Shown here one piece after another: positions 5,282 through 38,296 of a DNA stretch of 64,000 bases. Below the pieces are notes generated by a model, which did no database searches, had not been told where the DNA came from, and saw nothing but the letters and a program-made list of their open reading frames with translations. Origin of the DNA: Prosthecobacter sp. GTDB lineage: Bacteria > Verrucomicrobiota > Verrucomicrobiia > Verrucomicrobiales > Verrucomicrobiaceae. Position 1 is the first letter of the stretch. Each line of letters opens with the position of its first letter. A program made the position numbers and the translations under genes. The stretch spans positions 1 through 64,000 of the forward strand of contig JAIPJY010000012.1 of assembly GCA_021733925.1 (NCBI GenBank), in the 5' to 3' direction.

Positions 5282-5620
5282 CTAGCATGGGCGGGTGGCG
5301 AGGTGCAACAGGGCTCTTTCGGAATTAGTGGCTGCGAATGGGCGTTTGATCGCGGCGGAGGGGCGTTCAGGCGCTGCTGGTGGACGCGGTGTGCAAAGGG
5401 GGCTCTGGATTTGCTTCCCATGCGGCTGTGTCCTGTACCAGGGTAGCCTCGCCGAGGCTCGGCAACCCTTCGCTATGGTGCGTAACCCCTTTGGGGTTGG
5501 CGGCTTTTCGAGCGGTCTGCTCGGAGCGAGATCGAATGCTGCATTCACAAGTGTTCCTCCAGTTATTCTGATGCATCAGGGACGCACGTCCAGAGCCGAC
5601 AAAATGTCGGCGCTCCCAGT
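5282..5620 (+). repeat. Interspersed element, copy 2
   Basis: The core at 5352-5530 aligns with the other four copies: GCGGCGG, GGCGCTGCTGG, GGATTTGCTTCC, TGTACCAGGG, stem-loop AGCCT-CGCCG-AGGCT (5445-5459), GGCAACCCTTCGCTATG, and the 17-nt stem-loop at 5483-5499 (AACCCC / GGGGTT). Outer limits are estimated by comparison with the 333-bp copy 4; terminal inverted repeats are not clear here. Towards the right end are two more tiny palindromes (GGACG-CAC-GTCC region and CCGACA-AAA-TGTCGG, about 5580-5615). The element fills the gap between the ABC ATPase and the SHD1-like gene. Confidence 0.75.
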
Positions 5621-14729: not shown

Positions 14730-15067
14730 GTGAATGGCACGCAGCCAAGGGGGTGATCGTGGGTTTTGGGGCGTTGTCTGGTCATGGCGCTGGTGTGTGG
14801 CGGAGCTCATTGCAAACGCTGCTGGCAGGCGCGGGGTGCTGAGATGTGCTGGGTTTGCTTCCAGGGTGGTTGGCGGCATTTTCCAGGGAAGCCTCGCCGA
14901 GGCTCGGCATCCCTTCGCTATGATGCGCAGTCCCGTTGGGACTGGTGTGCAGCGGAGCGGAATGGCGAAGGACTGCAGCCGCTTGCCGAGAAGGTTTCAC
15001 GTTCAGTGGACAGTGCCCATGAGTGCAGAAAAACAGCGAGGCTCTGCCATTATTGAGTGCCTTTCAT
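14730..15067 (+). repeat. Interspersed element, copy 3, with degenerate terminal inverted repeats
   Basis: Nearly the same length as copy 4. The left end TGAATGGCACGCA (14731-14743) pairs with the right end TGAGTGCCTTTCA (15054-15066), 11 of 13 matching. Bases just outside (GCATGAC left, GGCTGAC right) match at 5 of 7 positions, which could be a decayed target duplication. Stem-loop 1 is AGCCT-CGCCG-AGGCT (14890-14904). Stem-loop 2 is CAGTCCC-GTT-GGGACTG (14928-14944). The right end stops 25 bases before the serine hydrolase start, so the element forms most of that gene's upstream region. Confidence 0.85.
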
Positions 15068-27993: not shown

Positions 27994-28040
27994 CGGGCTG
28001 CGTTGTTGTCTCCGTGGGCCATGCACGACTTGGACACAAA

Positions 28041-28389
28041 ATCTGTCATGAATGGCACTCAGTTAAGAACATTGATCGTTGGTTTAGGCGCGCTGCCTTA
28101 TCATGGTGCCAATGCGCGGCGGAGCTCTTTGCAGACGCTGCTGGTGCGCGTGGGGTGTGGAGGAGCGCTGGGTTTGCTTTCCAGATTTGATGCCTTGTAC
28201 CAGGGTAGCCTCGCTGAGGCTCGGCAACCCTTCACTTTGATCCACAGCCCCTTCAGGGCTGGTGTGAAGCGGGGCGGAGTGGCGAAAGATGAGGTGTCTG
28301 CTCAGGAAGGCTGAACGTGCCTGAAATGACATGAAGAGTGAAATAACAACGACATCAGGCCTTAACTGAGTGCCCTTCATATCTGTCAT
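28041..28389 (+). mobile_element. Interspersed element, copy 4: MITE-like, with inverted repeats and target duplication
   Basis: The best-preserved copy. Left terminus ATGAATGGCACTCAGTTAAG (28048-28067) and right terminus CTTAACTGAGTGCCCTTCAT (28361-28380) are inverted repeats matching at 19 of 20 positions, so the element is 333 bp. It is flanked by a direct repeat ATCTGTC (28041-28047 and 28381-28387), which continues to ATCTGTCAT if the terminal AT is counted; this is the signature of a transposition event. Inside are the shared core, stem-loop 1 (28207-28221) and stem-loop 2 (CAGCCC-CTTCA-GGGCTG, 28245-28261). No transposase-sized ORF, so it is non-autonomous. Confidence 0.85.
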
Positions 28390-29119
28390 CTACGGGGCAA
28401 TCATCTACTCGGTGTTTCTCAAGAAACCCTTGGGCCGATGGTTGCAGCAAGGCTTTTTGCAACAGGGACGTGCGGCACGAACCAAGGGCAGGCTGTTCAA
28501 TTTCCTGAAGAAACTTCGGTTGGTTCCTCCCCTCATCCTGCCAAACATCGACGTCAAAAAGCTGACGGAGAAGCCGCTGCCGCGTGGGTATGAAGTCCGC
28601 CTTTGGAAATTGGAAGACACCCAGGCATGCCTTGAGATTTACCGCATGAACGCGCCGGGGCGCTTTCCTGGCGAAGTGGAGCATGAGTTTGAAGAGGTGC
28701 TGAAGAGGGACGACGACTCCATGCTGGTCATTGAGGACCATGGTCGTATCGTCGCCTGTGGAGGCACATCGTTAAACGGCAACCAGGGGACGTTATTCTA
28801 TGGCTTGATCCATTCCGAGTTTCAGAAAAAGGGCATTGGGCGTGTGCTCCTATTATCACGACTCGCGAGGTTTAAAGGACCTCCTGTCGTCGTCCAAATC
28901 CATGCGGTCGAAGCTTCGATAGGCTACTATGAACGCTACGGATTTGCCCGATTCTCCAAGTGGTATTCTCAGAACGGTGACGCCCACCCCAGCGCCGGCA
29001 TTTCACTGCATCCAGAGCATCGTCAGAAGATCGCCGTGTTTCTCGCCACTGAAGGCTACGGCTTGCTGCCGGCATTGAATTCCTCAGCTGAAGAACTGCG
29101 CGCAAAATCAAGCGACTGA
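28370..29119 (+). CDS. GNAT-family N-acetyltransferase
   Basis: Up to 249 residues. The acetyltransferase fold occupies about residues 74-205: YEVRLWKLEDTQACLEIY, SMLVIEDHGRIVACGGTSL, the acetyl-CoA loop FQKKGIGRVLLLSRLA, and the closing IGYYERYGFARFSKW. The N-terminal ~60 residues are a basic/hydrophobic extension. The first available start is a GTG at 28370, which lies inside the right inverted repeat of copy 4, and codons 5-7 are the target-site duplication, so the element supplied or displaced the start. A downstream GTG (28410) may be the true start. Substrate unknown; base composition is lower in GC than the neighbours. Confidence 0.8.
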   Translation: MPFISVIYGAIIYSVFLKKPLGRWLQQGFLQQGRAARTKGRLFNFLKKLRLVPPLILPNIDVKKLTEKPLPRGYEVRLWKLEDTQACLEIYRMNAPGRFPGEVEHEFEEVLKRDDDSMLVIEDHGRIVACGGTSLNGNQGTLFYGLIHSEFQKKGIGRVLLLSRLARFKGPPVVVQIHAVEASIGYYERYGFARFSKWYSQNGDAHPSAGISLHPEHRQKIAVFLATEGYGLLPALNSSAEELRAKSSD

Positions 29120-37987: not shown

Positions 37988-38296
37988 TTCTACTTTGGTA
38001 AGTTATCGGGGTTTGGGCGCTGGCGGTACGCTCTGAACGCGGCGGAGCTTCTTGCAAACGCTGCTGGTGGGCGTAGTGCGTAGCGAAGGCACTGGGTTTG
38101 CTTCCCGGTGATTGACATCCAGTACCAGGGTAGCCTCGCTGAGGCTCGGCAACCCTTCGCTATGATACGCAGTCCCGTTGGGACTGGTGTAAAGCGGAGT
38201 GGGATGACGCAAGACAACGGCAACCAGCCAAGGACATTCCACGGCGTAAGATGTGATGCCGCAGGAAAGACCTCCCTATGACTTACCAAAGTAGAA
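37988..38296 (+). mobile_element. Interspersed element, copy 5, bounded by a different 16-bp inverted repeat
   Basis: The core (about 38004-38240) aligns with the other copies: GGTTTGGGCGC, GGCGGAGCTTCTTGCAAACG, CCAGTACCAGGGTAGCCTCG, stem-loop 1 (38132-38146), stem-loop 2 CAGTCCC-GTT-GGGACTG (38170-38186). Its ends are TTCTACTTTGGTAAGT (37988-38003) and ACTTACCAAAGTAGAA (38281-38296), a perfect 16-bp inverted repeat unrelated to the ATGAATGGC... ends of copies 3 and 4 apart from the inner TAAG. No clear target duplication. The right end lies 16 bases from the stop of the aminotransferase gene. Confidence 0.8.

Follow-up and report, generated by a model that had tools for sequence, protein, structure and literature searches.

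How did a short stretch with no transposase gene come to interrupt the start of an acetyltransferase gene in a Prosthecobacter genome, what moved it there, and where did its ends and its interior come from? The locus lies in the window, namely the whole stretch of 64,000 nucleotides that was analysed, and the window's own genome is an assembly of 7.3 Mb in 127 contigs. The family of miniature elements found at this place is called F1. Its ends were typed by scoring over 22 bases inside the repeat, with B denoting the upstream end and A the transposase-tail end of an insertion sequence (IS).

The element and its insertion site

28050–28378, no strand assigned: F1 miniature element (329 bp) with IS4-subgroup ends, from the sequence and repeat comparison
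28050–28067, plus strand: left terminal inverted repeat, GAATGGCACTCAGTTAAG; the subterminal bases score 10.7 for B and −3.8 for A, which assigns it to the IS upstream end
28361–28378, minus strand: right terminal inverted repeat, GAAGGGCACTCAGTTAAG on that strand; the subterminal bases score 8.5 for B and −11.4 for A, again the IS upstream end
28039–28049, no strand assigned: target duplication (probably 11 bp), left copy, AAATCTGTCAT, the 11-bp length being taken from the source IS copies
28379–28389, no strand assigned: target duplication (probably 11 bp), right copy, ATATCTGTCAT, from the sequence
28370–29119, plus strand: remaining GNAT acetyltransferase frame, whose first start codon is the GTG at 28370, inside the right end of the element
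14732–15065, no strand assigned: second F1 copy in the window, with decayed ends and flanks alike at 6/11

Regarding its boundaries, an earlier note on this DNA had described 333 bp with 20-bp ends, and the inverted repeats themselves are there (28048–28067 and 28361–28380 are identical at 19 of 20 positions); the limits were two bases off, the element being 329 bp long with ends that begin GAA. The two bases preceding GAAT differ among copies of the source IS (AT, TC, AG, AC, and TG), and because of this variation the element is taken to start at GAA, with AT as part of the target; for the same reason, a 7-base duplication with ATGAAT ends was ruled out. Similarly, the note's duplication of ATCTGTC, or of nine bases, corresponds to a real exact repeat (ATCTGTCAT at both 28041–28049 and 28381–28389), only its length needs revision: the duplicated target most likely measures 11 bp, AAATCTGTCAT and ATATCTGTCAT being identical at 10 of 11 positions; alternatively, the element may have an exact 9-bp duplication and unequal ends.

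As for coding capacity, the two longest ORFs listed that lie mostly within the element have 101 and 103 aa, far shorter than the source transposase (∼500 aa). The end motif GRCACTCAGTTAAG, allowing up to one mismatch, had 53 matches in the own genome (26 + 27) and none with a reversed-pattern control, which rules out a chance inverted repeat. When the own genome was searched with the F1 element and 40 of 158 first-look candidates were scored, at least 50 matches had E ≤ 0.001, many of them covering only the middle of the query; a blastn search of plasmid and phage collections, where records near the window's genome were possibly left out, gave no match. Thus, the element is a MITE: it is short, with terminal inverted repeats and a duplication, it lacks a transposase-length ORF, it occurs in multiple copies, and it has its ends in common with an autonomous IS. 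All these traits, and the genome copies with the same ends, had been proposed or predicted from the sequence of the window.

In the fetched loci, the flanks of two-ended F1 copies were alike at 9 or more of 11 positions in 8 out of 19 cases, versus 6 of 342 mismatched left-right pairings; the remaining 11 of the 19 agreed at fewer than 9 positions, through age or wrong pairing. In four places (L089, L091, L092, and L093), neighbouring F1 elements are exactly 11 bp apart, the spacing that a second hit on the duplicated target would give; the 11-bp target seems to be re-used, as though every insertion provided the next with a fresh site.

The frame downstream of the element matches Pfam GNAT domains, and the insertion falls within codons 7–10 of this gene. 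The pre-insertion ATG is at 28021, and the present frame (28370–29119) can start only within the right end of the element, with GTG, or further on; judging from the reading frame, the right end of the element now offers the GNAT frame a candidate start at GTG 28370. Of 56 genomes, own included, 34 have matches to the flanks of the insertion site. Among the 21 loci of relatives that were examined, both flanks were found together at four (G002, G020, G027, and G029), all of them empty, and the left flank alone was found at the remaining 17. The uninterrupted gene starts with MKDLNTLGVLYGALF in G020 and with MNDRLLLGVIYGVMV in G002, while the window minus the element reads MHDLDTKSVIYGAII; in G027, the empty site is shown by DNA alignment alone. 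Four related genomes therefore carry an uninterrupted GNAT gene at this place, which supports a past insertion in this lineage and agrees with the empty sites that had been anticipated in relatives.

The source insertion sequence

In the own genome, 17 contig edges fall within the same two sequences, 8 in an “A” end and 9 in a “B” end, with 100% identity; this is the pattern expected when a multicopy IS collapses in assembly, and the source IS has apparently collapsed at these 17 contig ends. Read backwards, the A end encodes the tail of an IS4-type transposase (our reading; the same tail occurs in frames from relatives). For six of the eight “A”-end flanks there is an identical 11-bp flank at a B end, and the flanks of the source IS resemble ATGCCWGGCAT. 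The A end was matched in 13 of 142 genomes, own included.

A complete source IS is present in the relative G025 (L100). It is 1622 bp long, holds a frame of 511 aa, and has ATGCCAGGCAT flanking both sides; its ends are both GAATGGCACTCATTTAAG, identical at 17 of 18 positions to the left end of the element in the window. The protein scores 214.5 bits with the NCBIfam IS4 model NF033592 (cut-off 115) and matches PF01609 (Pfam DDE_Tnp_1); its stretch YRRWSIELFYRDIK is the Y(2)R(3)E(6)K motif of IS4 transposases. For subgroup IS4, an excerpt of PMC2266710 gives ends of the form -AATR--------WTW, duplications of 10–13 bp, lengths of 1400–1650 bp, and the YREK motif; the ends of L100 fit this pattern, and its 11-bp duplication and its length fall within these ranges. 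Accordingly, the autonomous source is a ∼1.6-kb IS of the IS4 family, subgroup IS4, intact in genomes of the same genus, so that the full-length relative expected from the window, with near-identical ends and a transposase, exists and encodes one of the IS4 family. Relatives of the transposase were found at nine loci in a scan of named genomes, listed as Verrucomicrobiaceae bacterium, Verrucomicrobia bacterium, or Prosthecobacter sp.

The own-genome assembly lacks the body of the source IS, and PF01609 has one weak match there (33.2 bits). This sole match lies at G000:C116:25275–25466, near an F1 cluster. A diverged A-type end on contig C9 (L060), viewed as an IS body, has no transposase frame recognised by eye, and on C12 (L199) neither a partner end nor a recognisable transposase was found.

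The shared core and the F2 and F3 elements

28114–28289, plus strand: core common to F2 and F3 elements, from sequence comparison
28202–28231, plus strand: core hairpin 1, position read off the sequence
28245–28261, plus strand: core hairpin 2, position read off the sequence
37988–38296, no strand assigned: F2 element with IS701-like ends, its core being related to that of the element at 28050–28378 (78.5%)
5351–5500, plus strand: core copy (74%) without recognisable ends at the stricter limit
1–366, no strand assigned: partial F3 element with a partial core (79–171), cut by the contig start

The interior of the element contains a core of ∼176 bp that also occurs between other ends. The fetched own-genome loci hold 53 core copies, of which 22 have F1 ends only, 15 F2 ends only, 2 both, and 14 neither; this count used generous limits, with single F1 ends at up to 6/18 mismatches, and by our estimate a few of the single ends at 6/18 are due to chance, possibly including the F1 label of the copy at 5351–5500 in the tree. 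At 5 mismatches, 48 core copies comprise 17 with a left F1 end, 15 with a right one, and 10 with both. Tandem core copies without clear F1 or F2 ends on both sides occur at L130:402–878 (three copies), L132, and L013:1250–1660, with a spacing of ∼150–250 bases.

F2 ends are TTCTACTTTGGTAAGT, unrelated to those of F1 and accompanied by 4-bp repeats, which are identical in 9 of 14 copies as opposed to 19 of 182 mismatched pairings; F2-type copies exist also in the relatives G001 and G032. The core is present in all 14 two-ended F2 copies and in 14 of the 19 two-ended F1 copies, proportions that are biased towards the core because most loci were fetched through it. Core and ends are not tied to each other, since 5 of the 19 F1 copies have no core and 14 of the 53 core copies have ends of neither the F1 nor the F2 type. 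The five F1-ended elements without core (L002:1059, L005:1836, L031:1497, L084:1216, and L084:1501) indicate that the same ends carry other passengers.

The consensus sequences of F1 and F2 have 196 bp in common at 82% (E 1e-52), and the best F1 copy (22–286 of 330) aligns to positions 15–278 of the 328 in the F2 consensus, again at 82%; this homology spans almost the full element and breaks off close to its ends, which were therefore probably exchanged around one passenger. By eye, the outermost ∼50 right-hand bases of F2 resemble the corresponding end of L226, a 1536-bp element in G012 that has TTAC on both sides and ends TTCTACTTTGGTAAGT; its 241-aa frame scores 69.5 bits with the IS701 model NF033540 (cut-off 150) and 50.3 over 27 with PF13546 (DDE_5). 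An excerpt of PMC2266710 describes the IS701 family by ends ---YACT-Y--YR, 4-bp duplications, and lengths of 1400–1550 bp, and L226 has all three. With an F1-like interior and a right end like that of L226, F2 is a mosaic: its end pattern and 4-bp duplications agree with the IS701 family, while its interior is F1-like. A C32-edge F2 end was considered as an autonomous F2 element and ruled out, the sequence being a miniature copy.

F2 would most likely derive from an F1-like element by replacement of its ends, or from an IS701-type element by replacement of its middle. As a plausible exchange route, one family may have inserted within the ends of the other or next to them, with a later deletion. 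Nested insertions of both kinds are seen: in G027 (L225, TCAG/TTAG), an F1 end contains an F2 element, and in G000 (L173, with CTGCCGCGCAT twice), an F1 element adjoins a decayed F2 end. At L225:248–2060 (G027:C41), a 461-aa frame that scores 130.1 bits with the IS4 model (cut-off 115) lies between F2 ends 1.8 kb apart; here, an IS has probably inserted into an F2 element, itself located within an F1 end.

The third end type, F3, is bipartite (ATACCAC-6-TTGAAAACRGGTCTG), and such ends enclose core copies in G022 and G030 as well as further ones in the own genome, including two of the 14 without F1 or F2 ends. The 15-base F3 motif, with up to one mismatch, had 56 matches in the own genome and 0 in the control; beyond the genus, its matches were near the control level. 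F3 copies were noted at 1–366 of the window and on contigs C7, C12, C68, C87, and C95 of the own genome (L302–L306). In the F3 copies examined, neither a target duplication nor a source transposase was found.

Taken together, the core may be a structured selfish passenger that changes vehicles across at least three systems (IS4, IS701-like, and ATACCAC-TTGAAAAC ends), a reading put forward tentatively; if true, the core would spread independently of any one transposase. Instead, the core could be an older interspersed repeat, picked up separately by IS4-type, IS701-type, and F3 elements. Copies lacking F1 and F2 ends, some of them in tandem, speak for such independent capture, as do the different extents of interior that F3 copies of different genomes have in common, and a separate capture by F3 is likely. 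However, in the best F1 copy the F1–F2 homology exceeds the core and comes close to either end, and the F2 cores plus one mixed row form one clade (99/99, with the bootstrap not settled), which leaves independent capture as an unlikely account of all three families.

Regarding structure, the two hairpins pair in 99.1% of cells over 44 own-genome core copies, with two-sided changes at 5 pairs (34 cells), and in 98.9% of cells over 35 distinct rows from relatives, with two-sided changes at 5 pairs (25 cells); the rows from relatives were not used to set the structure, and their alignment was fitted to the model. Each pairing figure was reached by 0 of 500 shuffles, which ignore relatedness, and the counts may go back to few independent events; the measure of further types was weaker (28 and 29 of 500 shuffles). 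With a covariance model of the core, matches at E ≤ 0.001 (E-values are rough) were obtained in 66 of 142 genomes, own included, the strongest being in the same genus.

The two-sided changes would also suit a host functional RNA or regulatory element merely carried by mobile elements. Against this, Rfam searches were negative both for the element, up to E 1, and for the window, at gathering scores, which also rules out the core as a known RNA family; moreover, copies lie at different places, many of them decayed, and the structure may serve the element itself. A host RNA is thus improbable, and any role of the hairpins or function of the core is an inference. As in REP/BIME sequences, at least as an excerpt of PMC3733652 presents them, there are short, sometimes clustered hairpins whose stem residues have complementary alternatives; unlike them, the hairpins here belong to a ∼176-bp core carried by elements that have long inverted repeats.

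Two upstream-type ends and the origin of the element

Internal deletion of a single IS is the usual origin of miniature elements. For F1, 35 of 38 ends score higher for B than for A and 3 higher for A; no end scores above 1.0 for A, and 7 of the 38 are below 0 for B too. A leave-out control assigned 13 of 13 IS ends correctly, with shifts of −1 to 2 allowed for the F1 ends and not for these controls. On these scores, the IS4-type copies mostly have ends similar to the upstream one of the source IS, and because 35 of 38 fit B better, F1 is not simply an IS with its middle deleted. A plain internal-deletion derivative, namely the IS minus its transposase gene with its own left and right ends around a decayed IS interior, has one case at L111 (G029:C9), an IS shortened to 889 bp (718–1606) by an in-frame deletion, with one B-type and one A-type end, and is nevertheless very improbable for F1, given the end scores and the presence of the core also between unrelated ends.

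In conclusion, the stretch at 28050–28378 is very probably a non-autonomous, mosaic element of the IS4 subgroup with two B-type ends and a ∼176-bp core, presumably mobilised in trans. The transposase of the source IS would have acted in trans on the two upstream-type ends, and insertion would have taken place into an 11-bp target within codons 7–10 of the GNAT gene; the structured core is found within F1 (IS4-type), F2 (IS701-like), and F3 ends. The element at 28050–28378 differs from the IS4 subgroup in that it has no transposase gene, two upstream-type ends, and a foreign structured interior.

A further likeness is to TIMEs, which are Tn3-derived miniature elements: in an excerpt of PMC4133298 they are non-autonomous and ∼260 bp long, with conserved ends, a less conserved core, and mosaic derivatives, as in F1 and F2. 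However, TIMEs have one end type with different cargo, whereas F1, F2, and F3 have one cargo with several end types. Among the papers listed from the open-access literature on MITEs, IS4, Prosthecobacter, and Verrucomicrobia, none named the mosaic F1/F2/F3 system, and its novelty in print is not established.

The element is of an ordinary kind, yet mosaic, and the exchange of ends around a structured passenger lifts it above the routine. One passenger can be traced across two well-defined end types, with duplications of 11 versus 4 bp, which makes end exchange in bacterial miniature elements testable; the kept hairpins, in turn, raise the question of whether the passenger itself is selected.
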